NCBI GenBank assembly: GCA_019635575.1
Contig: JAHBZF010000012.1
Location: forward strand, 1 to 46,231
Origin: Pseudolabrys sp.
GTDB taxonomy: Bacteria; Pseudomonadota; Alphaproteobacteria; Rhizobiales; Xanthobacteraceae
Reading direction: 5' to 3'
DNA: 46,231 nucleotides
In this document: in pieces, positions 112 to 28,988 of the stretch
How the letters are laid out: each line of letters begins with the position of its first letter
Numbering within the stretch: the stretch's first letter is position 1
Made by a program: the position numbers and the translations under genes
Notes under the pieces: model-generated
What the model was told of the DNA's origin: nothing
The model's input: the letters and a program-made list of their open reading frames with translations, nothing else
Databases searched by the model: none

Positions 112-996
112 CTACAGCGGCGTTCGCGCCAGCAGCGCTTCCAGCGAGCGTGCGCCGGCCTCGCCCTTCTGCGCGCGGTCCCATTGTTCGACGATACTGT
201 CCTTGAACATCCGCACGGCTTCCGGCGCCGCGGTGACCATGGCGATGCCGGCCGAGATGTTCGGGTGATCGCCAAGCCGGTAAGGGCTCATGGTGACGAA
301 CGTGGCGTCGCTTTTCTCGAACACCTGAAAGGTTTGTTCCGCCGCGAAGTTCTCGACGACGCCGATCTGCACGCCGATCGGCTGCTTGCGGAAAATCTCC
401 ACCAGCCGTTCCACTTCTCGCCGTGCCAAGGCCCGGCGCTTGCGCATCACCGCGGCGCTGAGATCGTAGCGGCCAATCAGGCCGGAGCGCAGAAATCGCT
501 CGATGGTTTGCGTATTGATGACGCTGACGACGGTGGGATTGCGTTTCGGCGTCGAGCCGCGACGCTCCTTCAGCACCGACAGGACGCGCTCGACATAATC
601 GGCAAACCAGGCCCTGTCTTCATTGGCGGTGCCGTTGGATTCCAGCAGCATGGTGCGCAGATGATCGATGTAGTCATCCGACAGCAACAGGAACGAGATC
701 GGCGTGAAATTGCCGAGCACCTGAATGACGTTTTCCTCGAGCTGCCGCATGCGCTCGAAGAAGGCGACGGCATTGTTGTAATATTCGACGCCGACGCCCA
801 TCAGCGACGGCAGCGACACTTCGAGCAGCTCCGCGAGCTTCTCCAGCGTCTCGATCTTCACCAGCTCGCCCTTTTCGAGCCGGTACAGCGCTGCCCGCGA
901 GACGCCGATCTTCTCGGCCATGTCGGAGGCGGTGAAATTCTTGCCGAGACGATAGGCGCGCAGCCGGTTGCCGATTTCCTGCCATTGCTCGGACAT
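112..996 (-). CDS. XRE-family transcriptional regulator, likely regulator of the neighbouring pyr-type operon
   Basis: A 294-residue protein with an N-terminal Cro/CI helix-turn-helix (about residues 8-60; GVSRAALYRLEKGE is the recognition region) followed by a roughly 230-residue C-terminal domain I do not recognise, presumably for ligand sensing. I chose the ATG at 996 because the HTH begins a few residues after it. A longer reading to 1191 adds 65 low-complexity residues and runs over a candidate operator. It is transcribed divergently from the MFS carrier at 1292. A TCTCA-N4-TGATA motif lies 19 bases before its start and recurs before the MFS gene and pyrK, which suggests autoregulation and control of the cluster. 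Its role as the pyr-cluster regulator is inferred from position and the shared motif. No gene is seen in bases 1-111 beyond its 3' flank. Confidence 0.85.
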   Translation of the reverse strand: MSEQWQEIGNRLRAYRLGKNFTASDMAEKIGVSRAALYRLEKGELVKIETLEKLAELLEVSLPSLMGVGVEYYNNAVAFFERMRQLEENVIQVLGNFTPISFLLLSDDYIDHLRTMLLESNGTANEDRAWFADYVERVLSVLKERRGSTPKRNPTVVSVINTQTIERFLRSGLIGRYDLSAAVMRKRRALARREVERLVEIFRKQPIGVQIGVVENFAAEQTFQVFEKSDATFVTMSPYRLGDHPNISAGIAMVTAAPEAVRMFKDSIVEQWDRAQKGEAGARSLEALLARTPL

Positions 997-1014
997 GCGC
1001 TGCCTGAACCGAAG

Positions 1015-1028
1015 TCTCAAATTTGATA
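1015..1028. promoter_or_regulatory. Candidate XRE operator, copy 1 (regulator gene)
   Basis: The 17-base string GTCTCAAATTTGATACC (1014-1030) contains half-sites TCTCA and TGATA around four bases. The core TCAAATTTGA is a perfect palindrome. It lies just upstream of the regulator start. The same arrangement occurs at 1217-1230 and 3053-3066. Confidence 0.55.
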
Positions 1029-1195
1029 CCACACTGTGAAGCAGCGGAGATTGTTCTGCAAGCGTCGTATGTTGCGCCGGTAGGCGATTTTCTCGCGGGG
1101 TGATTAGCCAGCGAATGCGCTGCGCATCGCCAGGTTGCGGTTTGGACCCGGGCCGCCCCGACGCGATGATCGGGGGACGATCCCAGGCCATGCCC

Positions 1196-1226
1196 TTGAC
1201 TCCCGGAGGGCGACCGTCTCAATAAT
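1196..1226 (+). promoter_or_regulatory. Possible promoter of the MFS gene
   Basis: TTGACT (1196-1201) is followed after 19 bases by AATAAT (1221-1226). The spacing is long, so this is a weak call. The -10 would overlap operator copy 2, as expected for repression. Confidence 0.3.
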
Positions 1227-1230
1227 GATA
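1217..1230. promoter_or_regulatory. Candidate XRE operator, copy 2 (MFS gene)
   Basis: TCTCAATAATGATA within GTCTCAATAATGATACC. It differs from copy 1 only in the central bases, and the flanking G and CC are also shared. It lies 61 bases before the MFS start codon. Confidence 0.55.
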
Positions 1231-1232
1231 CC

Positions 1233-1251
1233 TTGCGACGTTTTGTCGCAA
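1233..1251. repeat. Perfect inverted repeat in the MFS leader
   Basis: TTGCGACGTTTTGTCGCAA has 7-bp perfect arms around GTTTT and starts two bases after operator copy 2. It could be a second protein-binding site or an mRNA hairpin. There is no U-run, so it is not a terminator. Confidence 0.5.
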
Positions 1252-1291
1252 ATCACGCCGTCGGGGGCGATCAAGGGAAGGGGTGGACACC

Positions 1292-2515
1292 ATGTCTGTT
1301 ACCGCTGCGGAAGCGTCCGATGCGACGCGCGAAAGTTACGCCCGCAAAGCTTTGCTCGGTTCGGCCCTCGGCTATGCGATGGACGGATTCGATCTGCTCA
1401 TTCTGGGCTTCATGCTGTCGGCGATCGCCGCCGAACTGCATTTCACGCCGGCGCAATCCGGCTCGCTGGTCACCTGGACGCTGATCGGCGCGGTCATCGG
1501 CGGCGTGGTGTTTGGCATCCTCAGCGACTATTTCGGCCGTATCCGCGTGCTGACCTGGACCATTCTGCTGTTTGCGATCTTCACCGGCCTGTGTGCCTTC
1601 GCGCAGGGCTATTGGGATCTGCTCGCGTATCGCACCATCGCTGGCCTCGGCCTCGGCGGCGAGTTCGGCATCGGCATGGCGCTGGCGGCCGAAGCCTGGC
1701 CAGCCTCGAAGCGCGCGCGGGTTTCGTCCTATGTCGGTCTCGGCTGGCAGGCGGGCGTGCTGCTCGCGGCGATCGTCACGCCGATTCTGCTGCCGATTGT
1801 CGGCTGGCGCGGCATGTTCGCCGTCGGCATCCTTCCGGCGGTCGTTGCCTTCATCGTCCGCTATACGCTTGGTGAGCCGCCGATCTTCGTCGAGAAGACC
1901 CAGAAACGCACCGGCAATCCGCTTGCGTTGCTGGTCAAGGACGCTGAGACGACCAAGATCAGTCTCGGCATGTTCATCCTCTGCTCGGTGCAGAACTTCG
2001 GCTACTACGGCGTGATGATCTGGCTGCCGTCTTATCTGTCGACGCGGTTCGGCTACACGCTCACCCGCTCGGCGGTGTGGACGGCCGTGACCATCCTCGG
2101 CATGGCGTTCGGCATCTGGCTGTTCGGTCAACTCGCTGACAAGTTCGGCCGCCGACCGATCTTCTTCCTGTATCAGGCCGGAGCGGCGATCTCGGTCGTC
2201 GTCTATTCGCAACTCGTCGATCCGATGCACCTGCTGATCGGCGGCGCGATCATGGGCCTGTTCGTCAACGGCATGCTCGGCGGCTACGGCGCGCTGATGT
2301 CGGAATTGTATCCGACCGAGGCGCGTGCAACGGCGCAGAACGTGCTGTTCAATCTCGGCCGTGGTGTCGGCGGATTCGGTCCGCTGGTGATCGGCGCGCT
2401 CGCCGCGCATTACTCGTTCGCGGTGGCGATCGCGCTGCTGTCGATCCTGTACGTGGTCGACATCATCGCCACGGCGCTGCTCATTCCCGAGCGCAAGGGC
2501 GCGCCGCTGGAATAA
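1292..2515 (+). CDS. MFS transporter, AAHS-like; candidate orotate or related acid importer
   Basis: A 407-residue, 12-helix major facilitator. The first helix carries GYAMDGFDLLILGF (about residues 27-40), with Asp31 and Asp34 resembling the DGYD/DGFD signature of the aromatic acid:H+ symporter family. The loop 2-3 signature appears as GILSDYFGRIRV, and a repeat of it (GQLADKFGRRP) precedes helix 8. The ATG at 1292 is preceded by a purine-rich ribosome site (AAGGGAAGGGG, 1276-1283 region). A GTG three codons upstream is less well placed. It diverges from the XRE regulator and carries the same operator motif as the pyrK operon, so I infer it imports the substrate of that operon, an acidic pyrimidine such as orotate. 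The family assignment is good; the substrate is a guess. Confidence 0.88.
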   Translation: MSVTAAEASDATRESYARKALLGSALGYAMDGFDLLILGFMLSAIAAELHFTPAQSGSLVTWTLIGAVIGGVVFGILSDYFGRIRVLTWTILLFAIFTGLCAFAQGYWDLLAYRTIAGLGLGGEFGIGMALAAEAWPASKRARVSSYVGLGWQAGVLLAAIVTPILLPIVGWRGMFAVGILPAVVAFIVRYTLGEPPIFVEKTQKRTGNPLALLVKDAETTKISLGMFILCSVQNFGYYGVMIWLPSYLSTRFGYTLTRSAVWTAVTILGMAFGIWLFGQLADKFGRRPIFFLYQAGAAISVVVYSQLVDPMHLLIGGAIMGLFVNGMLGGYGALMSELYPTEARATAQNVLFNLGRGVGGFGPLVIGALAAHYSFAVAIALLSILYVVDIIATALLIPERKGAPLE

Positions 2516-2541
2516 AGCGCGCCGCCGCACCGACAAAAACG

Positions 2542-2571
2542 AAAAGAGGAGCCGCGAGGCTCCTCTTTTTT
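2542..2571. terminator. Bidirectional rho-independent terminator
   Basis: Twelve-base perfect arms, AAAAGAGGAGCC and GGCTCCTCTTTT, around GCGA, with a T-run on the plus strand and A-run on the other side. It lies between the convergent MFS gene and the small gene at 2613-2918 and would serve both. Confidence 0.9.
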
Positions 2572-2612
2572 CTTTGATCGGCTGCCGTTCAAGCCGGCGG
2601 CGCGATCCGGGA

Positions 2613-2918
2613 TCAGTTGAGTTCCGACCCGGCGATCTCGTTGAGCAGCTTCAGCCGCTCGTCGGCGGACATGCGCTCGTAGCCGGCAGCCTTGTCCGCG
2701 AACGCGACCAGGCGACGGTGCGCTTCGTCGGTGACGTCGAGCGTCAGCGGATTTTCCTCGAACGAGTCGACGAAACGGCCGACCAGCATCCCGAGAAGAT
2801 AATACAGCGCATATTGGTCGCGGTGCTGCGCGCCCATCTCAAGGGCGCGCTGCTGGAACGTCTTGTACGTCCGCAAGCCCTTGTGCTGCGACTTCAGCCA
2901 TTGCGCCAATTCTTCCAC
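2613..2918 (-). CDS. Small hypothetical helical protein
   Basis: About 101 residues, mainly helical and charged, with no signal peptide and no motif I recognise. The GTG at 2918 is chosen because a strong GGAGGA (2924-2929) stands five bases before it. A GTG at 2942 would add eight residues and place that ribosome site inside the coding region. It is antiparallel to the flanking genes and shares the intergenic region 2919-3116 with pyrK. Whether it belongs functionally to the pyr-type cluster cannot be told from the sequence. Confidence 0.65.
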   Translation of the reverse strand: MEELAQWLKSQHKGLRTYKTFQQRALEMGAQHRDQYALYYLLGMLVGRFVDSFEENPLTLDVTDEAHRRLVAFADKAAGYERMSADERLKLLNEIAGSELN

Positions 2919-3043
2919 GTCCGTCCTCCGATTCTCGCTCACAGTGTCAGTAAAATGAAGAAACGACCAGTATATGACCTGGACGCGAATAAAAAAAGAG
3001 ATTTCTCGCGAAAAATGGCTGATTCTGCCCGATTACGCGTTTC

Positions 3044-3072
3044 TTGCGTGTGTCTCAAAAATGAGATAGCCT
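3044..3072 (+). promoter_or_regulatory. Possible promoter of the pyrK operon
   Basis: TTGCGT (3044-3049), 17 bases, TAGCCT (3067-3072). The candidate operator at 3053-3066 fills most of the spacer, so a bound repressor would occlude RNA polymerase. Both hexamers are far from consensus. Confidence 0.35.
3053..3066. promoter_or_regulatory. Candidate XRE operator, copy 3 (pyrK operon)
   Basis: TCTCAAAAATGAGA is a perfect inverted repeat (TCTCA/TGAGA, four-base spacer), preceded by G as in the two other copies. It lies 51 bases before the pyrK start. Confidence 0.6.
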
Positions 3073-3116
3073 CGGTTCTTTCCGCTGTTTTGGGTTTCCG
3101 AATGGGAGAGAACACC

Positions 3117-3968
3117 GTGCTCAGTCCGGCCCGTGCACCGTCGACCGCTCCACAGGCCGAAGCGGCGTTCGACGTCGCCGACACGCAGGCGCTGGTGGTG
3201 TCCAACACCGCCGTCAACAGCGACTACTTTCACATGGTGCTCGAAGCCGACGGCCTGGCTGCTCAGGCGCGCGCCGGCCAGTTCTTCAACATCGCCTGTC
3301 CGGCGACCGGCAACGACCTGCCGTATCTGCGGCGGCCGATGAGCGTCTATCGCGCCGCGCCGGCAAAAGGTCAGGTCGAGTTTCTCTACAAGGTCACGGG
3401 CGCCGGCACGCGCGGCCTCGCGACCGTGCGGGCGGGCGACAGCGTCGCCATCCTCGGCCCGCTCGGCAACGGCTTCACCCTCGATCCGCGCTGGAAGAAC
3501 ATCGTCGTGCTCGGCCGCGGCGTCGGTCTTGCGACGCTCGCGCCGCTCGCCGAACTTGCGGCGGAGCAGGGCGTCGGCGTCACGGCGATCCTCAGCGCCC
3601 GTTCGCGCGCGCTGGTGATGTCGGTTGAACGCTTCGCGAAAAGCGGCGCGGCGGTCGAGGTCGTGACCGATGAGGACGGATCGAGCGAGCCGGCGGCGGT
3701 CGAAAAACTGCTGGAGCGGCTGATCGTGCAGGGCAAGGCCGACGCGTTCTTCACCTGCGGTTCCAACCGGCTGATGCTGCTGATGAAGCGCGTCGGCGAG
3801 AAGCATGGCATTCCGGGCGAAGTGGCAATGGAGCAGCAGATGGCCTGCGGGCTCGGCATGTGCTTCTGCTGCGTGCGCTCGTTCGCGACGCCGGACGGCG
3901 ACACCGAGCAGCGTCGCGTCTGTCTCGAAGGCCCTGTGTTCGCGTTGCGGGAGGCGCTGTCATGGTAG
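3117..3968 (+). CDS. pyrK: Dihydroorotate dehydrogenase electron-transfer subunit (PyrK-like)
   Basis: A 283-residue FAD- and [2Fe-2S]-containing subunit that passes electrons between NAD(H) and the FMN of PyrD. It has the ferredoxin-reductase fold: an FAD-binding barrel with RRPMSVY (residues 72-78), a nucleotide motif LGRGVGLATLAPL (132-144), and a C-terminal cluster loop CGLGMCFCC with Cys244, Cys249 and Cys252 plus Cys269, the usual PyrK pattern. Start GTG 3117 has GGAGAG at 3105-3110. An in-frame ATG at 3102 lies upstream of that site, and open frame further upstream to 2574 shows no PyrK features. Its stop overlaps pyrD by seven bases (ATGGTAG). The 23 residues before the barrel are not typical of PyrK. 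An NAD-linked pair allows either direction of the dihydroorotate reaction. Confidence 0.93.
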   Translation: MLSPARAPSTAPQAEAAFDVADTQALVVSNTAVNSDYFHMVLEADGLAAQARAGQFFNIACPATGNDLPYLRRPMSVYRAAPAKGQVEFLYKVTGAGTRGLATVRAGDSVAILGPLGNGFTLDPRWKNIVVLGRGVGLATLAPLAELAAEQGVGVTAILSARSRALVMSVERFAKSGAAVEVVTDEDGSSEPAAVEKLLERLIVQGKADAFFTCGSNRLMLLMKRVGEKHGIPGEVAMEQQMACGLGMCFCCVRSFATPDGDTEQRRVCLEGPVFALREALSW

Positions 3969-4900
3969 ATTTGCGCGTCAAGATCGGCCGGATGACGCTG
4001 GCGAACCCGGTGATGCCGGCCTCCGGCACCTTCTCCGAAGGGCTCGCCCGCGTATTCTCGTTCGATCATCTCGGCGCGGTGGTCACCAAGACCATCACCG
4101 CGGAGCTGCGTGGCGGCAATCCGACGCCGCGTGTCTGCGAGGTCGGGCAGGGCATGCTCAATTCGATCGGTATTCCCAGCAAGGGCGTGGCGAACTTCAT
4201 CGACAAGATCATGCCGGAATACGAGCGGTTCTCCGCGCCGCTGGTGGTCAGCGTCTCGGCGCCGACCGTGGAGCTGTTCGGCGACATCGTGCGTCAGCTC
4301 GATATCCCCGGCATCGCCGCGATCGAGGCGAACATCTCGTGTCCGAACATCGAGGAAGACGGCAAAGCCTTCGCCATGCGGTCGCGCTCGACCAGCGCAG
4401 TGGTCAAGGAATTGCGTGCAGCGACCAAACTCCCGCTGTGGGTCAAGCTGACGCCGAACACCGCCGACGTGGCGGCGGTCGCGCTCGCCGCGCAGGACCA
4501 GGGCGCCGACGCGCTGGTGGTCGCCAACACCATCCTCGCCATGTCGATCGACACCGAGACGTTCAAGCCGCGGCTCGGCAACATTCTCGGCGGTTATTCC
4601 GGCCCGGCGATCAAGCCGATCGCGCTGCGCATGACCTATCAATGCGCCAAGGCTGTGAGCATTCCGGTGATCGGTTGCGGCGGCATTGCCTCGACCGAGG
4701 ACGCGGTGGAATTCCTGCTCGCCGGCGCTACCGCGGTGCAGGTCGGCACCGCGACCTTCGTCAAGCCGAACACCATGCTGGAGATTGTCGACGGCCTCGA
4801 AGCGTTCTGCGCGCGCAAGGGCATCGCCCGCGTGAGTGACCTGATCGGCGCGGTGCGCGACACCGACATGAATGTCGACAAGCTGGAGGCGCTGCCGTGA
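3962..4900 (+). CDS. pyrD: Dihydroorotate dehydrogenase class 1B, catalytic subunit
   Basis: A 312-residue FMN TIM-barrel enzyme interconverting dihydroorotate and orotate. The class 1B features are visible: N-terminal GRMTLANPVMPASGTF, a substrate loop GQGMLNSIG (63-70), NISCPN with catalytic Cys127, VKLTPN, and the C-terminal phosphate-binding stretch GCGGIASTEDAVEFLLAGATAVQVGTA in two glycine-rich loops. There is no N-terminal membrane segment, unlike quinone-linked class 2. Start ATG 3962 overlaps the pyrK stop. The GTGA overlap at its end couples it to the amidohydrolase at 4897. With PyrK and in this gene company it may act reductively on orotate, in catabolism. That direction is inferred; biosynthetic use cannot be excluded. 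Confidence 0.93.
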   Translation: MVDLRVKIGRMTLANPVMPASGTFSEGLARVFSFDHLGAVVTKTITAELRGGNPTPRVCEVGQGMLNSIGIPSKGVANFIDKIMPEYERFSAPLVVSVSAPTVELFGDIVRQLDIPGIAAIEANISCPNIEEDGKAFAMRSRSTSAVVKELRAATKLPLWVKLTPNTADVAAVALAAQDQGADALVVANTILAMSIDTETFKPRLGNILGGYSGPAIKPIALRMTYQCAKAVSIPVIGCGGIASTEDAVEFLLAGATAVQVGTATFVKPNTMLEIVDGLEAFCARKGIARVSDLIGAVRDTDMNVDKLEALP

Positions 4901-6189
4901 ACGCGCCCACCGGCCTGCGCGACGGGATCGACGCGCGGCAATGGCGCGAACTCGCCGAGCGTCTGTTCGACGAGTTGCGCACGCGTTCGACCGACGATCC
5001 GGGCGTCACCCGTGAATGCTACGCCGCGGGCGAAAACGCCGCGATAACGCTGCTGCGGGAGACCGCCGCCGAATACGGCCTCGTCTGCACCGAGGATCGC
5101 GCCGCCAATCTCACCATTTCGCTCCCGGACGACGATCTCGGTAAACCCGGCATCATCCTCGGCTCGCACGTCGATTCCGTGCCGCATGGCGGTAACTTCG
5201 ACGGCGGCGCTGGCGTCATCGCCGGGCTTCTCTGCCTGATCCGGCTGCGTGCCGAGCGCCACGCGCCGGTTCCGCCGGTGCGGTTGCTCGCGTTGCGCGG
5301 CGAGGAAAGTGCCTATTACGGCCGCGCCAATATGGGTTCGCGCGCGCTGTTCGGCCTGTTGACGCCCGCCGATCTCGACGCCAAGCGCCAATCCGGTGGC
5401 GGGACGTTGCGAGAGGCTATGGCTTCGGTGGGTGCCGACGTCGACGCCATCGCGCAGCGCGAGGTGCTGCTGTCGCCGGATTCCGTGTCGTCCTATCTGG
5501 AACTGCATATCGAGCAGGGTCCGGTGATGGTCGCGCGCGACCTGCCGACGGCGATCGTCACCGGCATTCGCGGCAATCTGCGGCATCGCCGTGTCGCCTG
5601 TCGCGGCGAGGCCGGGCATTCCGGCACGGTGCCGCGCTGGCTGCGGCGCGACGCGGTGTTCGCGGTGTCCGATCTGATCATGCGTCTCGACGAGCACTGG
5701 AACCGGTTGCTGGAGCGCGGCATCGATCTCGTGGTCACGGCCGGTGTGTTCGGCACCGACAGTTCGCAGCACGCCATCGCGCGTATCCCCGGCGAGGTCT
5801 ATTTCTCCTTCGAGGTGCGTAGCCAGAGTTACGACACGCTCGAAGGGTTCTACGAGCTGTTCCGTTCCGAATGTCGCGCGGTCGCGGATCTGCGCCGCGT
5901 CAAGTTCGAATTCGACGATCGGATCTACACCGAGCCGGCGCGGATGGATGAAGGCATTATCGCCCGCCTCAAAAAGTATTCCGAGAAGCTCGGCTATCCG
6001 ACCGAGCTTATTCCGAGCGGCGCCGGCCACGACGCGGCGGTGTTCGCCAATGCCGGCGTGCCGTCGGGCATGATTTTTGTGCGTAACCGCAACGGATCGC
6101 ACAATCCGGACGAGGCGATGGCGCTCGACGATTTCATGCGCGGCGTGGAACTGATGTATGCTTACGCATCCACAGGTACGCCAAGCTGA
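4897..6189 (+). CDS. M20-family Zn amidohydrolase; candidate N-carbamoyl-L-aspartate hydrolase (ureidosuccinase)
   Basis: A 430-residue member of the N-carbamoyl-L-amino-acid hydrolase/allantoate amidohydrolase branch of peptidase family M20. Di-zinc ligands are all present: His91 (GSHVDSV), Asp102 (GNFDGGAG), Glu137 with the catalytic Glu136 (GEES), His204 (LELHIEQG) and His402 (GSHNPDE). The dimerisation-domain motif [10 protein letters not shown] is at 237-246. Start GTG 4897 overlaps the pyrD stop as GTGA, with GGAGG at 4885-4889. Family members remove CO2 and ammonia from ureido acids. Placed between dihydroorotate dehydrogenase and dihydroorotase, the obvious substrate is N-carbamoyl-L-aspartate, yielding aspartate. 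The family is secure; the substrate is inferred from context. This gene argues most strongly that the operon is degradative. Confidence 0.9.
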
Positions 6190-7229
6190 TGACGAGCCCG
6201 ACGACACTGACGATCCGCCGTCCCGACGACTGGCATGTGCATTTTCGCGACGGCGAGGTGCTGAAATCGGTGGTGAACTTCACCGCTGCGCATTTCGGCC
6301 GCGCTATCGTCATGCCGAACCTGGTGCCGCCGGTGACGACGGCGAAGCAGGCGGCGGCCTATCGCGAGCGCATCCTTGCGGCGATCGACGGCCATCGTTT
6401 CACGCCGCTGATGACCTGCTATCTCACCGACGATACCGACAAGACTGACCTGATTGCCGGGTTTCGCGACGGCATCTTTACCGCGGTGAAGCTCTATCCG
6501 GCGCACGCCACCACCAATTCGGCCCACGGCGTCACCGATCTCGACAAGGTCCGTCCGGTGCTCGAAGCCATGGCGGAAGCGGGGATGCGGCTGTTGATCC
6601 ACGGCGAGGTGCCGAAGCCGGAGATCGACGTGTTCGACCGGGAAAAGGTGTTCATCGACACGATCCTGTTGCCGCTCCTGGACAAGGTGCCGGCGCTGAA
6701 GATCGTCATGGAGCATGTCACTACCTTGCACGGCGTGGCGGTGGTGCGGGCGCACCGCTCGCGGCTCGGCGCGACCATCACGCCGCAGCACCTGCTGTTC
6801 AACCGCAACGCGATCTTCAACGGCGGGTTGCGGCCGCATATGTATTGTCTGCCCGTGCTCAAGCGCGAGGAACACCGCCTGGCGCTGCGGGAAGCGGCGA
6901 CCAGCGGCGACCCCGGCTTCTTCCTCGGCACCGATTCCGCCCCGCATCTGCGCCATCTCAAGGAGGCGGCCTGCGGCTGCGCCGGGGTGTTCGGCGCGCC
7001 GGCGGCGCTCGCCGCCTATCTCAAGGTGTTCGAGGAGGAGGGGGCGCTGGACAAGTTCGAGGCGTTCGCCTCCCTGAACGGTCCGGCCTTCTACGGCCTG
7101 CCGGCGAACGAGGAGCGGGTGACGCTCCGGAAAAAGCCGCAGTTCGTTTGCGACGATGTTCCGGTCGAAAAAATGGGGGAAATCCATCCTCTGTTCGGTG
7201 GCGATCAGGTTGACTGGTCAATGGCTTAG
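6189..7229 (+). CDS. pyrC: Dihydroorotase, class II (E. coli PyrC type)
   Basis: A 346-residue binuclear zinc amidohydrolase interconverting dihydroorotate and N-carbamoyl-L-aspartate. Length and residues match the E. coli enzyme with an offset of one: His16 and His18 ([10 protein letters not shown]), the carbamylated Lys101 ([13 protein letters not shown]), His138 (IHGE), His176 (EHVTT) and catalytic Asp249 (GTDSAPH). The flexible substrate loop is present around residues 107-114. Its ATG shares a base with the preceding TGA, so it is translationally coupled to the amidohydrolase. In this order it would open the dihydroorotate ring and feed the ureidosuccinase-like enzyme. Equally it could serve biosynthesis with the following pyrE. 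Confidence 0.95.
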
Positions 7230-7351: not shown

Positions 7352-8080
7352 ATGAGTAATTTTTCATCCTCGCCGGCTGACAAGAAAGCCATTGCGCGCC
7401 AGACCGCAAAGATGATGCTGGAAATCAAGGCGATTCACTTCAATGCGGAATCGCCTTTTTTCTTTACCTCCGGTTGGGCCAGCCCCGTTTACGTCGACTG
7501 CCGCAAGATCATCTCCTATCCGCGCCTGCGCTCGGGCCTGATGGACTTCTCCTCGGCGGTGATCCTGTCCGAGATCGGCTACGAGTCGATCGACAACATC
7601 GCCGGCGGCGAGACCGCGGGCATCCCGTTCGCCGCCTGGATCGCCGACAAGCTGATGCTGCCGATGCAGTATATCCGCAAGAAGGCCAAGGGCTTCGGCC
7701 GGAACGCGCAGATCGAGGGCGATCTGCTCGAAGGCGCGCGCACGCTGCTGGTGGAAGACCTCGCGACCGACGGGCGCAGCAAGGTCAATTTCTGCAATGC
7801 GCTGCGCAAGGCCGGCGCGCAGGTCGATCACTGCTTCGTGCTGTTCTATTACGATATCTTCCCGGAAAGTCAGGGGCACCTTCGCGACCTGAATGTGAAG
7901 CTGCACCATCTCGCCACCTGGTGGGACGTGCTCGAAGTCGCGGAAGAGAGCGGTCATTTCGATCGCGGCATGCTGCGTGAGGTGCGTGCGTTCCTCAATC
8001 AGCCGGCTCAGTGGTCGGCGGCGCATGGCGGCATCTCCGACTTCGACGGCGGTCCGAAGCAGGAAGGCGCGGCGGCATAG
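7352..8080 (+). CDS. pyrE: Orotate phosphoribosyltransferase (long alphaproteobacterial form)
   Basis: A 242-residue type I phosphoribosyltransferase that makes OMP from orotate and PRPP. It has the substrate loop [17 protein letters not shown], a central [12 protein letters not shown], a flexible loop with [17 protein letters not shown], and the PRPP loop [13 protein letters not shown], which lacks the usual TGGS but, from memory, resembles other long alphaproteobacterial PyrE proteins. It is longer than the roughly 213 residues of E. coli PyrE. The start ATG 7352 follows AGAAGGGGAA. It lies 122 bases after pyrC and may have its own promoter. A strong terminator follows at 8107. It could be the salvage branch for imported orotate, or simply a biosynthetic gene. 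Confidence 0.92.
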
Positions 8081-8106: not shown

Positions 8107-8136
8107 AAAACCCTCCGGCATGCCGGAGGGTTTTTT
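8107..8136. terminator. Strong bidirectional rho-independent terminator
   Basis: AAAACCCTCCGGCA and its exact reverse complement form a stem, with T-runs on both strands. It separates the convergent pyrE and FAD monooxygenase genes and abuts the stop codon of the latter. Confidence 0.95.
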
Positions 8137-9266
8137 CATTCTTGATGATGTTGCCGGTACGCCGCCATGAAGCGCGGCGCCATGCGCTCCACTTTTTCCG
8201 GCGACACGCGGCCGGAACGGGTGATGTAGGACATCGCGAAATCGTAGGGCGCGAGCGGCATCTTGTCCGGGAAGGTTTCGTACCAGGCGGCGCTGGCATT
8301 GGCGGCGTCCACCAGCAGTTCGAGGATCGGCCGGCGCTCCGCTTCGTAGCGTGTCAGCGCCGCTGGAATATCGCGCGGGGAAGCGGCAAGGGCGCGGGCT
8401 AGCGCGATCGAGTCTTCCAGCGCGAGACGCGTTCCCGAGCCGATCGAGAAATGCGCGGTGTGCAGCGCGTCGCCGAGGATCACGGTGTTGCCGCGCGACC
8501 AGCGCGTGTTGTGGATCACCGGGAATTGCCGCCAGATCGAACGGTTGGAGATCAGTGGATGGCCGTCGAGGGTGTCCGCGAACACATCTTCCAGCGCGGT
8601 TTTGAGCGCGGCTTCGTCGAGCACGGCGAGACCGCTGTTGGCGAAGGTCGCCGCGTCGGTCTCGATGATGAATGTGCTCATCCGATCGGAATAGCGATAG
8701 TGGTGCGCGTTGAAATAGCCAAGACGATGCTTCACGAAGGTCTGCGTCAGCGTCTCGAATCGCTTGGTGGTTCCGAACCAGACGAAGCGGTTGGAGAGAT
8801 AGCGAATGCTGGTGCCGAACGCCGTCTCGTCGGCGCGCCGCACCAGCGAGTTGACGCCGTCGGCGCCGACGATCACGTCCGCCCCCGCGAGTTCGTCGAG
8901 CGACTGGACGGTGTGGCCGTAGCGGATATCGACGCCGAGCCGCAGCGCCTCGCGTTGCAGGATCTGCAGGAGATGCAGCCGCCCCACGGCGGTGAAGCCA
9001 ACGCCGTCGATGGCGACGCTTTCGCCTTTGTGGGTGATGGTGATGTCCTGCCAGCGTTCGAGGTCCGGCGTGATCGCCGCGTGGATCGCCGGGTCGTCTT
9101 CTTTCAGGAATTCCAGCGCGCTGTCGGAGAATACGACGCCGAAGCCGAAGGTCGAATCCGCGGCATTCTGCTCGTAGACCGTGAGCTCTGTTGTGATGCC
9201 GCTGCGTTTGAGCAGGATCGCGAGATAAAGACCGGCCGGTCCTGCGCCGAGGATATTCACTTTCAT
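8136..9266 (-). CDS. FAD-dependent aromatic monooxygenase, anthraniloyl/salicylyl-CoA hydroxylase-like
   Basis: A 376-residue class A flavoprotein monooxygenase. Dinucleotide motif GAGPAGLY is at residues 7-14, GADGVN is mid-protein, and the second FAD motif reads GDALHTAHFSIGSGTRLALEDSIALARAL. The GFGVVFSDSALEFL stretch near residue 41 and the FSIGSGT loop are, in my recollection, typical of the monooxygenase domains of anthraniloyl-CoA monooxygenase and salicylyl-CoA 5-hydroxylase. Here that domain stands alone, without the fused reductase half. The start ATG 9266 has GAGGG about nine bases upstream. It follows the TetR gene by 17 bases on the same strand. Nearby CoA ligase and crotonase genes suggest that the substrate is an aryl-CoA thioester. 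That is inference. Confidence 0.85.
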   Translation of the reverse strand: MKVNILGAGPAGLYLAILLKRSGITTELTVYEQNAADSTFGFGVVFSDSALEFLKEDDPAIHAAITPDLERWQDITITHKGESVAIDGVGFTAVGRLHLLQILQREALRLGVDIRYGHTVQSLDELAGADVIVGADGVNSLVRRADETAFGTSIRYLSNRFVWFGTTKRFETLTQTFVKHRLGYFNAHHYRYSDRMSTFIIETDAATFANSGLAVLDEAALKTALEDVFADTLDGHPLISNRSIWRQFPVIHNTRWSRGNTVILGDALHTAHFSIGSGTRLALEDSIALARALAASPRDIPAALTRYEAERRPILELLVDAANASAAWYETFPDKMPLAPYDFAMSYITRSGRVSPEKVERMAPRFMAAYRQHHQE

Positions 9267-10079: not shown

Positions 10080-10886
10080 GTGAGCGGAAACTGGGGCCGG
10101 CTGCAGATGACGTTGCCGGATGCTTTGCGCGCGGAGCGGCGCGATGAGATCGCCGTGCTGTGGCTGACGCGCGCGGAAAAGCGCAATGCCATCAACACCG
10201 ACATGCTGCGCGGCATCAAGCTGTTCTTCGGCAATCTCGCCGACGACATCAAGGCGGTGGTGATCGCCGGCGAGGGCGACAATTTCTCCGCCGGCCTCGA
10301 TCTCAGTGAATTGACCGAGAAGGACGCAGCCGAAGGCGCGTTCCATTCGCGCGAATGGCACGATGCCTTCCACGACGTGCAATATGCGCGGGTGCCGGTG
10401 ATCAGCGTTCTGCACGGCGCGGTGATCGGCGCCGGCCTCGAACTCGCAAGTGCGACGCATCTTCGTGTGGCCGAGCCGACGACGTTTTACGGTCTGCCGG
10501 AAGGCCAGCGCGGCATCTTCCTCGGTGGCGGCGGCGCGATGCGGTTGACACGGCTGCTCGGTGTCGCCCGCGTCACGGATCTGATGATGACCGGCCGGAC
10601 ACTCAATGCGCAGGAAGGCTATCAGTTCGGTTTCTCGCAATATCTGGTCGACGCTGGCGAGGGACTGGCGAAGGGCATCGAGATCGCGCGCCGCGCCGGG
10701 TCGAACGCGCCGCTCAGCAACTTCGCGATCATCCACGCGCTGCCGCGTATCGCCGAGATGGGGCCGGATCAGGGCCTGTTCCTGGAGTCGATGGTCACCG
10801 GCGTGGTACAGAGCTCGAAGGATGCCAAGGAGCGGCTGGTCGCGTTTCTGGAGAAGCGCGCCAACAAGGTGGAGCGGCCGCGCTGA
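10080..10886 (+). CDS. Enoyl-CoA hydratase/isomerase (crotonase family)
   Basis: A 268-residue crotonase. The oxyanion-hole segments are FSAGLDL and GAVIGAGLEL. The two catalytic glutamates of hydratases are both kept, Glu121 (GLELAS) and Glu141 (GLPEGQ), with the 20-residue spacing seen in rat enoyl-CoA hydratase (144 and 164). The start GTG 10080 is chosen because AAGGAGA (10066-10072) stands seven bases before it. In-frame ATG 10035 lies inside the operator palindrome and lacks a ribosome site. It is followed by, and overlaps by one base, the AtzH-like gene. With the FAD monooxygenase and benzoate-CoA ligase nearby, it could hydrate an unsaturated or ring-derived acyl-CoA. The substrate is unknown. 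Confidence 0.9.
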   Translation: MSGNWGRLQMTLPDALRAERRDEIAVLWLTRAEKRNAINTDMLRGIKLFFGNLADDIKAVVIAGEGDNFSAGLDLSELTEKDAAEGAFHSREWHDAFHDVQYARVPVISVLHGAVIGAGLELASATHLRVAEPTTFYGLPEGQRGIFLGGGGAMRLTRLLGVARVTDLMMTGRTLNAQEGYQFGFSQYLVDAGEGLAKGIEIARRAGSNAPLSNFAIIHALPRIAEMGPDQGLFLESMVTGVVQSSKDAKERLVAFLEKRANKVERPR

Positions 10887-11269
10887 TGAGCCTGGAGATC
10901 GACATTCCAGAGGTCGTCGCCGAGGTCCGCGCCGCGTTCGAGCGTTACGAGACGGCGCTGGTCAGCAACGACGTACCCGTGCTTGACGAATTGTTCCGCA
11001 ACGATCCGCGCACGGTGCGTTACGGTGCCGGCGAAAATCTCTACGGCTATGATGAGATCATGGCGTTCCGCGCGGCGCGCTCGCCGGTGGCGCTCGGGCG
11101 CACACTGTCGCGGACGGTGATCACGACTTACGGCCGCGATTTCGCGGTGGCGTCAACGCTCTATGAGCGTCCCTCCGCGCCGGGCCGCATCGGCCGGCAG
11201 ATGCAGACCTGGGTGCGCTTTCCCGAAGGCTGGCGTATCGTCGCCGCTCACGTCAGCTTGATGCAGTAA
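10886..11269 (+). CDS. AtzH/HpxZ-like (DUF3225) SnoaL-fold protein
   Basis: A 127-residue protein of the NTF2/SnoaL-like fold. It has the characteristic run LDELFRNDPRTVRYGAGE near residue 33, then YGYDEI, and a C-terminal WVRFPEGWRIVAAHVS. Relatives include HpxZ of oxalurate catabolism and AtzH of cyanuric-acid catabolism, where AtzH hydrolyses a carboxybiuret. A substrate here cannot be deduced. Its ATG overlaps the crotonase TGA (TGATG), so the two are co-translated. It ends one base from the convergent regulator gene with no terminator between. The link of a ureido-hydrolase-like fold with an aryl-CoA cluster is unexplained; it may be a small accessory enzyme for an acyl intermediate. Confidence 0.8.
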   Translation: MSLEIDIPEVVAEVRAAFERYETALVSNDVPVLDELFRNDPRTVRYGAGENLYGYDEIMAFRAARSPVALGRTLSRTVITTYGRDFAVASTLYERPSAPGRIGRQMQTWVRFPEGWRIVAAHVSLMQ

Positions 11270-11270
11270 T

Positions 11271-12146
11271 TTACGCCGCCGCGGCAGCGTATTGGCGCAC
11301 GGTGCGCACCAGCGTTTCGCCGGCTTGGGTCACATCGAGACCGCTGGTTTCCACCACCGCATGCGCGCGCGCATAAAGCGGCTCGCGGCTCAACAGGATC
11401 GCGCGCAATTCCTGCATCGCCGAGCGGTCCTCGGCCATCGGCCGCAGGTCGCCCTGGTCGCGCACGCGTTGCATGTGATCTTCCGGTTTCGCTTTCAGCC
11501 AGACGGTGAAGAACGACGAGAGGACGAGATCGAAGGTCAGAGGTTCGGCGACGATGCCGCCGCCGGTCGCCAGCAGCAGCGGTTCGCGCACGCCGGTGAA
11601 GCGACGCACCTGGGCTTGCTCCAGCCGCCGATACCCCTCCTGCCCGTAAAGCGCGAAGATCTCCGCCATCGACAAGCCTGCCTCGCGCTCGATCTCGCGA
11701 TCGAGTTCGACGAAGCGCCAGCCGAGCCGGTCAGCCGCGAATTGTCCGAGTGTGGATTTGCCGGCGCCACGCAGGCCGATCAGCGCCACGCGGCTCGCTT
11801 GCGCATTGCGGATCGGCGTCGCGTCGCCGGTGAGAATTGTCTTCACTCGCACGATCTGCTCGTTGCTGGCGTTACGCAGCAGATCGCGCACCACCGCCCA
11901 GTCGGCCGGCGCTTCGCCGCCGGGGATCAGATCGTCGAGCCGTGTGCCCATGGCGGCCGCGACGCGGCGCAGCAGCAGGATTGACACATTGCCCTGGCCG
12001 CTTTCGAGCTGGGCGATGTAGCGTTCCGACAGGCCCGAGGTCTGTGACAGTACCTTGCGCGACATGCCGCGCACGGCGCGCGTCTGCCGGACGTTCTGGC
12101 CGAGCTGCTGGAGAAAATCGGTTTCGCGCGGATCGGCCTCGGACAT
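11271..12146 (-). CDS. boxR: BoxR/BzdR-type regulator: HTH plus shikimate-kinase-like domain
   Basis: A 291-residue fusion of an XRE-type HTH (about residues 13-75, with SGLSERYIAQLESGQGN) and a shikimate-kinase-like domain from about 117. The P-loop GLRGAGKST lies at 124-132, followed by a DRE Asp149 region and ATGGG. In Azoarcus, BzdR and BoxR share this architecture, with the kinase-like domain binding benzoyl-CoA to release DNA. Adjacent and divergent to benzoate-CoA ligase, it most likely represses that gene until benzoyl-CoA forms. The start ATG 12146 fits the HTH. Whether the domain retains kinase activity is unknown; no aroK context is present. Confidence 0.88.
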   Translation of the reverse strand: MSEADPRETDFLQQLGQNVRQTRAVRGMSRKVLSQTSGLSERYIAQLESGQGNVSILLLRRVAAAMGTRLDDLIPGGEAPADWAVVRDLLRNASNEQIVRVKTILTGDATPIRNAQASRVALIGLRGAGKSTLGQFAADRLGWRFVELDREIEREAGLSMAEIFALYGQEGYRRLEQAQVRRFTGVREPLLLATGGGIVAEPLTFDLVLSSFFTVWLKAKPEDHMQRVRDQGDLRPMAEDRSAMQELRAILLSREPLYARAHAVVETSGLDVTQAGETLVRTVRQYAAAAA

Positions 12147-25525: not shown

Positions 25526-26362
25526 ATGGCACGCATCGTCGGCGGTATCGGCTGTTCGCACGCCCCCTCCATCGCCCATTCGTTCGATCGCGGTCTGCAG
25601 AAAGACCCGATGTGGAAGCCGCTCTATGACGGCTTCGAACCGGCGAAGGAATGGCTGGACAAGCTCAAGCCCGATCTGATCGTCGCGGTCTACAACGACC
25701 ACATGAACCGCTTCTTCTTCGACGCCTATCCGACCTTCGCGCTGGGTGTCGCGGACCGGCATCCGCAGGCCGACGAGGGCTGGGGCAAACGCGATTTCCC
25801 GGATCTGCCCGGCAATGCCGAATTCTCCTGGCATCTGGCGCAAAGCCTCGTCGAAGACGAATTCGATCCGACCATCTGTCAGGAGATGACGGTCGATCAC
25901 GGCATTCTCTCGATCCTGCCACTGCTCACCGACAATCGCTGGCCGGCGCCGCTGGTGCCGCTCGCCGCCAACGTGATCCAGCATCCGCTGCCGACGCCGA
26001 AGCGGTTTTTCCATCTCGGTCAGGCGATCCGCCACGCGGTCGAGACCTATCCGCAAGACCTGCGCGTGCTCGTGGTCGCGACCGGCGGTATGTCGCATCA
26101 ACTACATGGCGACCGCTTCGGCTTCATGAATCCGCAGTGGGACAACGAATTCCTCGACAAGCTCGAATCCGATCCGCAGGCGCTCGTCGCCTTGCGCCAT
26201 CACGACTACATGGAGCGCGGCGGCGCGGAATCGGTCGAGATGATCATGTGGCTCGCCATGCGCTCGGCGCTCGGCGAGAAAGTGCGGCGTATTCACCGCC
26301 ATTATTACGCGCCGATGCTGACCGGATACGGCCTGATCGTATTCGAAGGCGTCGACGGCTGA
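25526..26362 (+). CDS. ligB: Class III extradiol ring-cleavage dioxygenase, LigB family
   Basis: A 278-residue non-haem Fe(II) dioxygenase catalytic subunit that opens a catechol-type ring next to a hydroxyl. The iron ligands are His12 (CSHAPS), His59 (NDHMNRFFFD) and Glu235 (RGGAESVEMIMW); the catalytic base is His191 (GGMSHQL). These align with His12, His61, Glu242 and His195 of Sphingobium LigB. It is shorter than that protein (about 300). With ligA it should form an alpha2beta2 enzyme. Its product would be a semialdehyde or a nitrogen analogue. The adjacent HpaB-like hydroxylase probably generates its dihydroxy substrate. Confidence 0.93.
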   Translation: MARIVGGIGCSHAPSIAHSFDRGLQKDPMWKPLYDGFEPAKEWLDKLKPDLIVAVYNDHMNRFFFDAYPTFALGVADRHPQADEGWGKRDFPDLPGNAEFSWHLAQSLVEDEFDPTICQEMTVDHGILSILPLLTDNRWPAPLVPLAANVIQHPLPTPKRFFHLGQAIRHAVETYPQDLRVLVVATGGMSHQLHGDRFGFMNPQWDNEFLDKLESDPQALVALRHHDYMERGGAESVEMIMWLAMRSALGEKVRRIHRHYYAPMLTGYGLIVFEGVDG

Positions 26363-26384
26363 TCGCATAACATCTGCGGAGAGA

Positions 26385-27899
26385 GTGATGGGTATCCGGA
26401 CCGGCAAGCAATATCTCGAGTCCCTGCGGGACGGCCGCCAGATGTGGATCGACGGCGAACTGGTGACCGATGTCACCACAGACCGCCGCTTTGCCGGCGC
26501 GGCCTACACCATGGCCGAACTCTACGACATGCAGCACCATCAAAACTTGGTCGAGCGCATGACCTATCAGTCGCCGACCAGCGGCGCGCGTGTCGGCCTG
26601 TCGTTCATTCAGCCGAAGAGCATGAACGATCTCGAACGCCGCCGCGACATGGTGAAGACGTGGATGGATTCGACCTGCGGCATGTTCGGCCGCAGCCCGG
26701 ACTTCATGAATATCACGCTGACCGGCTTCGCCTGCGCCAAGGAGGCGTTCGGCCAGAAAGAGCAGAAATACGCCGACAATATCTGGAACTACTATCTCTA
26801 TTGTCGCGAGAACGACATCGCGATGACCCACACGCTGATCAATCCGCAGGTCGACCGCTCCAAGCCGGTCGAGAAGCAGGACAAGGATCTGGCGGCGAAA
26901 GTGGTAAAGGAGACCGATGCCGGCATCGTCGTGCATGGTGCGCGCATGGTATCGACGCTGTGTGCCTATTCCCAAGACCTGCTGGTGATGCCGTCGACCT
27001 ATCTCGCCAACAGCGAGGAGGCGAAGCCCTATGCGTTCGGGTTCGCCGTACCGGTGAATGCGCCCGGTCTGCGCTTCATCTGTCGGCCATCGGTGATCCA
27101 CGGTAATCCCGGCTCGCCGATGGATTATCCGCTGTCGTCGCGTCTCGACGAGACCGACGCCATGGTGATCTTCGACAACGTGCTGATCCCGTGGGAGAAG
27201 GTGTTCATCTATCGCGATGCGGAGATGTGCAACGGTCTGTACAACCGCACCGGCGCGATGCCGCAGATCATGCACCAGTTCAGCACCAAGAACCTGGCCA
27301 AGGCCGAGTTCATGATGGCGCTGGCTTTCTCCATCGCGCGCTCGACCAAGATCGACGCGCACCTGCATGTGCAAGGCATGCTGGCGGAGATGATCCAGTA
27401 TACCGAGTTCGTGCGTGCCTGTTTGCGCGCCAGCGAGGTCGATGCGGCGCCGAATGCCCAAGGCTTCACCACGCCGGCGGCGATGCCGCTGTGGACCGTG
27501 CGCATGATGTTCCCGAAAATGTTCATCCGCATGTGCGAGATCATCCAGATCCTCGGCGCGGGCGGTCTCGTCGCCGTGCCGTCCTACGCGGAACTGGCCG
27601 GCCCGGTCGGCAAGGACGTCGAAACCTACTTCCAGGCGGCGAACGCGGATTCGCGCTACCGCATCAAGCTGTTCCGGCTTGCCTTCGATGCGGCGGTGTC
27701 GTCGTTCTCCGGCCGGCAGCAGCTTTACGAACGCTACTATTCCGGCGATCCTGTGCGGCTTGCGGGAACGCTCTATGAAATCTACGACAAGAACCCCTAT
27801 GTGGACCGGATTTCGGAATTGCTCGATGGTCTTGAAGAACGCCGCGACGATCCGGAAAAGCCGCTGCCGTTCCGGCCGGTGCTGTCGGCGGCCGAATAG
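26385..27899 (+). CDS. FADH2-dependent phenol hydroxylase, HpaB family
   Basis: A 504-residue oxygenase component of a two-component flavin monooxygenase, 4-hydroxyphenylacetate 3-monooxygenase family. It has TGKQYLESLRDGRQMWIDGE at the N-terminus, RSPDFMN, DIAMTHTLINPQ, and a C-terminal helical domain with AGGLVAVPSYAEL. HpaB enzymes use reduced flavin and O2 to add an ortho hydroxyl. The partner reductase is encoded two genes downstream. The start ATG 26385 follows GGAGAGAG. Family members act on 4-hydroxyphenylacetate, chlorophenols, and pyridinols. I leave the substrate open. Its product would be the catecholic substrate for LigAB. Confidence 0.92.
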   Translation: MMGIRTGKQYLESLRDGRQMWIDGELVTDVTTDRRFAGAAYTMAELYDMQHHQNLVERMTYQSPTSGARVGLSFIQPKSMNDLERRRDMVKTWMDSTCGMFGRSPDFMNITLTGFACAKEAFGQKEQKYADNIWNYYLYCRENDIAMTHTLINPQVDRSKPVEKQDKDLAAKVVKETDAGIVVHGARMVSTLCAYSQDLLVMPSTYLANSEEAKPYAFGFAVPVNAPGLRFICRPSVIHGNPGSPMDYPLSSRLDETDAMVIFDNVLIPWEKVFIYRDAEMCNGLYNRTGAMPQIMHQFSTKNLAKAEFMMALAFSIARSTKIDAHLHVQGMLAEMIQYTEFVRACLRASEVDAAPNAQGFTTPAAMPLWTVRMMFPKMFIRMCEIIQILGAGGLVAVPSYAELAGPVGKDVETYFQAANADSRYRIKLFRLAFDAAVSSFSGRQQLYERYYSGDPVRLAGTLYEIYDKNPYVDRISELLDGLEERRDDPEKPLPFRPVLSAAE

Positions 27900-27929
27900 A
27901 CTGATGGCATCGTCGTTCGAGAGTGCTGC

Positions 27930-28988
27930 ATGACCGCGCGCGCCGCTGTTTCGCTCGGCGCCGTCGACCTCAAGTCGCCGCTGATCTGCGGGTCGGGCGA
28001 GCATCTGATGTATGCCCAAGGCATCCGTCAGGCGCTTGCCGCCGGCGCCGCCGCCGTCGTGTCGAAATCGGTCAACGAGAGTGAGGCGGCGCGCCGCCAA
28101 CTCGACCGCACCGATTACGCGTTGCTCGACAGCGAATGGCGCCGTCTGCCGTGGGATTTCAACCCACCCGCCGACGCGAGCCTGTTCTGCCGCTCCGGCC
28201 TCGCGCAGCAGTCGTTCGATGAATGGCTGGCGATGATCGCCCCGCTCGACCGCGAGGCGAAGGCGCAGGATGCCTATGTGATCGCCAGCCTGATCCTCGC
28301 CGATCTCGATCACTGCGTCGCCATGGCGAAGCGGATCGAGGAGGCGGGCCTGCGCATCCTCGAACTCAATATCGGCGCACCGCACGGCAACGAGGCCGCG
28401 CCCGGCGCCATCGTTTTGGAGCGCGACAGCGCCCGCGTGCGCACCATCGTCTCGCGTGTACGCGCGGCGGTGAAGATCCCGCTGTGGATCAAGCTCACCG
28501 GCCAGAGCGAGGATGTCGCCGCGCTCACACTGGCGGCCAAAGAGGCGGGTGCCGATGCGGTGACGGTGATGGGCCGCTTCATCGCTTTCCTGCCGGATAT
28601 CGAGAGCTTCGCGCCGACGCTCGGCACCAATGCCGCGTTCGGCGGCCCGTGGGCCTTGCCGCTCACCTGCCGCTGGCTGGCGCAGTCGCGCCGCGCGGTC
28701 GGTAAATCGTTTCCGCTGCTCGGCACCAATGGCGCGCGCACCGGGCTCGACATTGCCCGCTTCCTGTTGTCGGGCGCGAGCGCGGTGCAGGTCACGTCGG
28801 CGGTGTTCACCGGCGGCTTCGGCGTCATCACGCGGATGCGCGACGATTTCGCCGCCTATCTCGATCGCAAGCAGGTGTCCGCCGCCGATCTGATCGGCCG
28901 TGCCGCCGACCAGCAGGGCAGCTACGCCGAGCAGCAGAGCCGCCCCGGCTATTGGGAGCAGTTCGTGGTGCCGGAGGCGCGCGCATGA
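27930..28988 (+). CDS. Dihydroorotate/dihydropyrimidine dehydrogenase-like FMN protein, catalytic Cys replaced
   Basis: A 352-residue TIM-barrel protein of the dihydroorotate/dihydropyrimidine dehydrogenase family. It has SPLICGSGE near 16, a substrate helix, LELNIGAPHGNE (144-155), VKIPLWIKLTGQS and GASAVQVTSAVFTGGF at the phosphate-binding end. In dihydropyrimidine and class 1B dihydroorotate dehydrogenases the ELN motif is followed by xSCP. Here it is IGAP, so the catalytic cysteine position is Ala150. It may therefore use another base, reduce a different C=C bond, or not act as a redox enzyme. It lies between the HpaB-like gene and the flavin reductase, whose ATG overlaps its TGA. Its role in the pathway is unknown. 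Confidence 0.82.
   Translation: MTARAAVSLGAVDLKSPLICGSGEHLMYAQGIRQALAAGAAAVVSKSVNESEAARRQLDRTDYALLDSEWRRLPWDFNPPADASLFCRSGLAQQSFDEWLAMIAPLDREAKAQDAYVIASLILADLDHCVAMAKRIEEAGLRILELNIGAPHGNEAAPGAIVLERDSARVRTIVSRVRAAVKIPLWIKLTGQSEDVAALTLAAKEAGADAVTVMGRFIAFLPDIESFAPTLGTNAAFGGPWALPLTCRWLAQSRRAVGKSFPLLGTNGARTGLDIARFLLSGASAVQVTSAVFTGGFGVITRMRDDFAAYLDRKQVSAADLIGRAADQQGSYAEQQSRPGYWEQFVVPEARA

Follow-up and report, generated by a model that had tools for sequence, protein, structure and literature searches.

The left end of a 46,231-nucleotide stretch of Pseudolabrys sp. DNA (contig JAHBZF010000012.1 of assembly GCA_019635575.1; the whole stretch is called the window here) carries a group of pyrimidine genes whose possible role in orotate breakdown is the subject of this analysis. 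On the plus strand, the gene for a major facilitator superfamily (MFS) carrier resembling aromatic-acid:H+ symporters (1283..2515, starting at GTG 1283 or ATG 1292) is followed by pyrK (3102..3968), pyrD (3962..4900), a gene for an amidohydrolase of the M20 hydantoinase/carbamoylase family (4897..6189; M20 hereafter), pyrC (6189..7229) and pyrE (7352..8080). Divergent from these, on the minus strand, lies the gene for an XRE/Cro-C1-type regulator with a long C-terminal part (112..996; REG hereafter), which scores 45.7 bits against a cut-off of 23 for Pfam HTH_3. The longest open reading frame (ORF) of REG begins at 1191, and ATG 996 was preferred as the start because the helix-turn-helix (HTH) comes after it. 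A small conserved ORF of 109 aa (2613..2942, minus strand) is divergent from pyrK, and scans of Pfam and NCBIfam gave no match to it. With the likely starts, pyrK and pyrD overlap by 7 bases, pyrD and M20 by 4, and M20 and pyrC by 1; the gap from pyrC to pyrE is 122 bases. A first-pass annotation had proposed a complete orotate-degradation operon at 112..7229, consisting of the carrier, PyrK, a class 1B PyrD, the amidohydrolase and PyrC and joined by overlapping codons from pyrK to pyrC. All of these genes are intact and the overlaps are real, but pyrE was overlooked, as were the operators and the second carrier described below.

PyrD passes the dihydroorotate dehydrogenase model NF005574 (344.8 bits against 269) and fails as PreA (147.7 against 335). 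Along with this score, a NISCPN motif with the catalytic cysteine and a Fe-S partner in PyrK place it in class 1B, and its linkage to nicotinamide adenine dinucleotide (NAD) is presumed from that class. The partner, a PyrK-like electron-transfer subunit of the flavin adenine dinucleotide (FAD)/2Fe-2S kind, passes Pfam DHODB_Fe-S_bind (43.1 against 23.9) and keeps four cysteines as C-x4-C-x2-C-x16-C; against class 1B, it is below the NCBIfam PyrK equivalog cut-offs (139 against 270 and 314; 130 against 219). PyrC is placed among the dimeric dihydroorotases by the equivalog model TIGR00856 (434.5 against 292.95 bits). PyrD-1B is predicted to reduce orotate to dihydroorotate, and PyrC to open dihydroorotate. 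The closest family of the MFS carrier is TIGR00895, aromatic acid:H+ symport (324.1 bits, under the cut-off of 418.55), and its predicted role is orotate uptake. PyrE is an orotate phosphoribosyltransferase of the ordinary type (NF001729, 391.3 against 245 bits) with the loop RKKAKGFG, whose lysine we take to be K103 in Salmonella numbering and to matter for catalysis.

The M20 protein is a candidate ureidosuccinase (EC 3.5.1.7), which would hydrolyse N-carbamoyl-L-aspartate to aspartate, CO2 and NH3, a substrate suggested by its genomic context. Besides this neighbourhood, the assignment draws on the hydantoinase/carbamoylase family model TIGR01879 (258.5 against 204 bits), on the zinc site and on a structural model. 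The first-pass annotation had described the zinc ligands as intact, and H91, D102, E136, E137, H204 and H402, presumably the zinc ligands and the catalytic glutamate, are each found in 81 of 81 rows of the family alignment. R225, N227, R229, R247, R250 and R308 are equally invariant (81/81), and a methionine stands opposite R247 in the five alignments inspected, two of which are to AllC. R296 is replaced by valine in 12 of the 81 rows, most M20-PyrE rows among them. The extra arginines would suit a second carboxylate. R225, N227, R229 and R296 are no more than suggestive. R247 was also considered as a marker of the pyr-linked M20 clade and rejected, being present in the unlinked rows L044 and L045. 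The AlphaFold model (mean predicted local distance difference test score, pLDDT, 87.5) is closest to the L-N-carbamoylase 3n5f (32% identity) and the allantoate amidohydrolase 1z2l (29%). As an allantoate deiminase AllC (TIGR03176) the protein scores 191.2 against 597.75 bits, and as an N-carbamyl-L-glutamate amidohydrolase ErtE (NF058540) 263.1 against 520; specificity for allantoate or carbamoyl-glutamate was rejected on these scores, which are far under the cut-offs.

Among 397 genomes of the order, 57 (its own included) contain a match to M20 at E up to 1e-60; the 18 same-family genomes listed contain none. In 23 of the 29 non-self loci from this order-wide search, PyrK-PyrD lies beside M20. 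For wider comparison, named genomes were scanned with an M20 alignment and the best 80 of 417 confirmed candidates were kept; these loci were selected by M20 similarity alone, and the counts from them therefore describe the closest relatives. Nearly all are proteobacterial, with one bin labelled Verrucomicrobia. Gene maps were made with a simple ORF chooser (by length in low-GC loci, since codon bias failed there), and presence was counted from a homologue search because these maps miss some genes. PyrK and PyrD occur together in 61 of the 80 loci, a PyrE homologue in 71, PyrC in 27, a REG relative in 52, an MFS match in 44 and a homologue of the small ORF in 20. Alpha- and betaproteobacteria alike keep M20 next to PyrKD, PyrC or PyrE. 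Because the same cassette recurs in other genera, a chance neighbourhood is excluded. Six Pandoraea loci (L059, L060, L066, L067, L074, L080) have a second, different M20-family gene after the operon, for example at 10306-11766 (minus strand) of L059, the member scanned.

Besides the operon copy, two genes of the Pseudolabrys genome are matched above the DHO_dh cut-off: a weak, DHO_dh-like one in the window (27930-28988) and one on contig C13 that encodes a quinone-type (class 2) PyrD (498.7 against 366 bits; TIGR01036, 367.6 against 200). Contig C141 holds pyrB together with a pyrC of the multi-type, so that the quinone-type pyrD, pyrB and further pyrC which the first-pass annotation had suggested looking for all exist. 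The single pyrE match is the window copy. PyrKD and PyrC are thus surplus to synthesis and PyrE is not, because another pyrD and a pyrB-pyrC pair lie elsewhere and only one pyrE was found. The arrangement is that of an orotate pathway of the Clostridium oroticum type, in which the three enzymes adjoin and synthesis copies of pyrD and pyrC stand apart. Each of the 43 searched genomes that carry a pyrKD-M20 locus shows two DHO_dh matches scoring 214 bits or more. Seven genomes with M20-PyrE alone were also searched, of which six gave a single strong match and G435 gave another one at 209.6 bits; the class of the copies was checked in the Pseudolabrys genome alone.

The relatives also indicate where the product may go. 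An aspartate ammonia-lyase of one cluster lies beside or among the operon genes in 12 of the 80 loci. Two members pass NF008909 (636.7 and 700.8 against 510 bits) and fall under the stricter aspA model (550.8 and 620.6 against 681.2), and that of L062 passes both (744.0 against 510; 686.1 against 681.2). In two of the 12, the Cupriavidus loci L062 and L064, a malic enzyme and a porin-cluster gene are added. The AspA, LysR and porin clusters were assigned by clustering, with one to three members of each scanned (for LysR, L123). The expected fate of the carbamoyl-aspartate carbon is conversion of aspartate to fumarate and of malate to pyruvate. An asparaginase near the M20-PyrE locus L095 may be there by chance.

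The genes appear to be under common control. In the window, the palindrome GTCTCA-WWWW-TGAGAC precedes REG (operator 1, GTCTCAAATTTGATAC, 1014..1029, ahead of ATG 996), the MFS gene (operator 2, GTCTCAATAATGATAC, 1216..1231) and pyrK (operator 3, GTCTCAAAAATGAGAT, 3052..3067, between pyrK and the small ORF and 34 bases ahead of the likely pyrK ATG 3102). The half-sites GTCTCA and TGAGAC are common to the upstream regions of related loci. With the window counted in, 37 of the 53 loci that bear the regulator match the motif at 14 or more of its 16 positions. Of the 28 others three do so (L049, L051, L119), and five dinucleotide shuffles each left no more than one matching locus of 53. At least one match falls inside the upstream spans set for operon genes in 29 of these 37 loci. 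In the other eight, two sites stand before dctP (L053, L071) and six Pandoraea/Burkholderia sites stand 508-563 bases ahead of the MFS match. A whole-genome scan is a sharper test, because the motif came from the locus upstream regions. A search of the 3.83 Mb with a pattern derived from operators 1 to 3 found no further perfect operator, and a control with the reversed pattern gave no site over the genome. The only further site found (C134:31878-31893) has one mismatch and lies 57 bases ahead of a dctP gene. REG is probably a repressor of the orotate genes that would bind these sites and be released by an inducer; no solved relative other than HTH proteins was found for it. One base past operator 2 there is a further perfect palindrome, TTGCGAC-GTTTT-GTCGCAA (1233-1251), and in Bosea loci the first operator half-site is GTCGCA.

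The dctP gene opens a dctPQM cluster for a tripartite ATP-independent periplasmic (TRAP) transporter, which lies outside the window at 28889-31820 of C134 in the same genome (G000; 390-3321 of L160); dctQ and dctM were assigned by inspection and from their resemblance to L054. In the near relative L046 (Rhizobiales bacterium 64-17), the end of C134 aligns at 89.9% identity and then the window at 93.8%; the alignments are 35 bases apart in L046, and at the two contig ends 58 and 75 bases do not align. Since both are collinear with L046, the TRAP genes probably adjoin REG just beyond the left end of the window. The best solved match of this DctP is 4NN3 (450.7 bits; next 182.6), as it is for the Devosia DctP of L054, near the same kind of operon (425.2; next 183.5). 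According to part of a 2024 paper, 4NN3 is a TRAP binding protein of Maridesulfovibrio salexigens that had orotic acid bound (PMC11668362), and a passage of a review lists orotic acid among the TRAP ligands from a large screen (PMC5812351). The C134 DctP is predicted to be an orotate-binding protein. The dctP genes of this cluster in eight loci have a best upstream site of 12 to 14 of 16 positions; for ten dctM genes, where an own site is not expected, the best is 9 to 11.

Taken together, the locus is very probably an inducible orotate catabolic regulon. The orotate degradation proposed in the first-pass annotation gains support from the second pyrD and pyrC set, the aspartate ammonia-lyase of the relatives and the operator before an orotate-related dctP. 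Orotate would be taken up by the TRAP transporter and the MFS carrier and reduced to dihydroorotate by PyrKD-1B working in the reducing direction. PyrC would then form N-carbamoyl-L-aspartate, from which M20 would release aspartate, CO2 and NH3, supplying the cell with nitrogen as well as a C4 skeleton. REG would act on the GTCTCA-W4-TGAGAC palindromes before its own gene, MFS, pyrK and dctP, with orotate or a product as the probable inducer. Through the ordinary pyrE that closes the operon, part of the orotate would go to uridine monophosphate (UMP).

An improbable alternative is that the operon serves orotate salvage or duplicate synthesis, with PyrE making UMP and M20 merely recycling excess carbamoyl-aspartate. 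A pyrE inside the operon that is the sole copy found in the genome would fit this, as would the reversibility of the PyrC and PyrD reactions. However, the synthesis genes pyrB, pyrC and pyrD sit elsewhere (the reason for which PyrE was rejected as a sign of a plain synthesis operon), and the M20 hydrolase, with the aspartase and malic enzyme of relatives, would drain the pathway. Many relatives, moreover, have a divergent operon PyrE and another pyrE in the genome. Among 73 PyrE rows from the loci (the short L100 left out), 21 are of the ordinary type, at least 62% identical to the window PyrE and all with the loop lysine, and the operon PyrE of the window's own M20 clade belongs to this type. 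The other 52 are less than 50% identical to it, and 50 of these have lost the loop lysine (three have arginine), with L075 and L119 keeping it. In every one of the 27 searched genomes whose locus PyrE is divergent, a further pyrE match (55 bits or more) is listed. From an additional set of 30 pyrE stretches, 23 could be used (L132, L133, L137-L140 and L150 were dropped as mis-extracted); all 23 have the lysine, and some of them are ordinary-type operon copies that repeat locus genes.

It is still less probable that the true nutrient is N-carbamoyl-aspartate or dihydroorotate, PyrKD being an accessory for imported orotate. Sixteen of the 80 loci have M20 and PyrE without other Pyr proteins, some with genes for amino-acid ATP-binding cassette (ABC) transport or a TctC protein nearby, and three have M20, PyrC and PyrE without PyrKD. 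Against this nutrient, PyrKD is present in the large majority of loci and the operator-bearing dctP is closest to the orotate-bound 4NN3. The PyrKD-less arrangement, furthermore, is largely that of a single lineage: in a tree of 83 rows, 12 of the 16 M20-PyrE-only loci form one clade (support 100/99), the others being scattered (L119, with PyrD in two pieces, was labelled as lacking it). Least probable is action of M20 on another ureido acid such as allantoate or N-carbamoyl-glutamate with incidental pyrKD adjacency. The library names, which are allantoate amidohydrolase-like, and the ErtE and AllC scores would fit this, but both scores are far under their cut-offs and the pyr neighbourhood is kept across two proteobacterial classes.

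Several points weigh against an orotate catabolic regulon. The broad TIGR01879 is the only M20 carbamoylase model that M20 passes, and we know of no activity for its clade. PyrK-PyrD is lacking from 19 of the 80 loci, some of which lie on cut contigs (e.g. L091), and M20 therefore apparently can serve without orotate reduction. The presence of the motif upstream is partly by construction, because it was drawn from those regions, and in 16 of the 53 loci with the regulator the motif does not reach 14 of 16 positions. The dctP site has its mismatch and sits on another contig, whose adjacency to the window rests on collinearity with L046. The operon pyrE, as a gene of synthesis, could point to salvage, and the genome searched (3.83 Mb in 209 contigs) is 83.6% complete and 5.4% contaminated.

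An orotate catabolic regulon also leaves two features unexplained: the loss of the loop lysine in nearly all divergent PyrE proteins, and the occurrence of M20 with such a protein (PyrE2) alone. PyrE2 retains the fold, the phosphoribosyl pyrophosphate (PRPP) motif and an SGWASPVY stretch, and the L123 model (mean pLDDT 89.8) is closest to the orotate phosphoribosyltransferase 4ohc. Three scanned members fall under the NF001729 cut-off (228.2, 200.5 and 227.9 against 245), and a betaproteobacterial group also lacks three loop positions. We tentatively suggest, with slightly less than even confidence, that PyrE2 is no ordinary orotate phosphoribosyltransferase and has come to sense, regulate or assist orotate catabolism. 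In that case the minimal pair of M20 and PyrE2 would form a module of which we know no description. In seven loci (L073, L111, L113, L117, L120, L123, L124) M20-PyrE2 pairs without PyrKD stand behind a divergent LysR-cluster gene, with a TctC protein or genes for amino-acid ABC transport close to several of them.

The locus supplies a testable candidate ureidosuccinase gene, along with two carriers and a dedicated regulator whose site is defined, within an orotate gene set distributed over alpha- and betaproteobacteria. It also calls for caution, as genes named pyrD, pyrC, pyrE or allantoate amidohydrolase may be catabolic in some genomes. To our knowledge, no gene has been published for ureidosuccinase. 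Among the papers listed in a literature search of one open library, none was seen to assign genes to orotate breakdown, and in portions of an article on reaction modules in pyrimidine and purine pathways (PMC4016543) "ureidosuccin-" and "carbamoyl aspartate" (spelled with a space) are absent and orotate occurs once.

Two other regions of the window were noted. The stretch at 25526-30504 resembles a further operon for ring degradation, one that includes an unusual relative of DHO_dh: it holds a class III extradiol dioxygenase, an HpaB-type monooxygenase (TIGR02309, 512.6 against 480.2), the DHO_dh-like gene already mentioned, here under all cut-offs, and flavin reductase-like and IclR-like genes recognised by eye. 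At 8136-9266 (minus strand), a FAD monooxygenase related to salicylyl-CoA 5-hydroxylase (376.5 bits, under the cut-off) adjoins a gene of the TetR type and an ORF that resembles enoyl-CoA hydratase, both named by eye.

Among known proteins, M20 shares its fold and zinc site with 3n5f, 1z2l (AllC) and ErtE, and differs from them in the family-wide R225, N227, R229 and R247 and in falling under the AllC and ErtE cut-offs. 4NN3 is the closest solved relative of the operator-bearing dctP product but comes from a sulphate reducer. Among known pathways, reductive uracil and thymine catabolism proceeds through PreTA or PydA, PydB and PydC. There, too, the ring is reduced, the ring is opened and the carbamoyl group is hydrolysed; here, in contrast, PyrD passes as a dihydroorotate dehydrogenase and not as PreA, PyrC is a dihydroorotase, and the product would be aspartate and not beta-alanine. 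The biochemistry of orotate breakdown was established in the 1950s, and Clostridium (Zymobacterium) oroticum ferments orotate by means of ureidosuccinase (EC 3.5.1.7). The route proposed here follows the same three steps, from orotate through dihydroorotate and N-carbamoyl-aspartate to aspartate. It differs from that of C. oroticum in its place in alpha- and betaproteobacteria, in its named genes, in a regulator of its own with sites, in its TRAP and MFS carriers and, in some relatives, in the presence of aspartase and malic enzyme.

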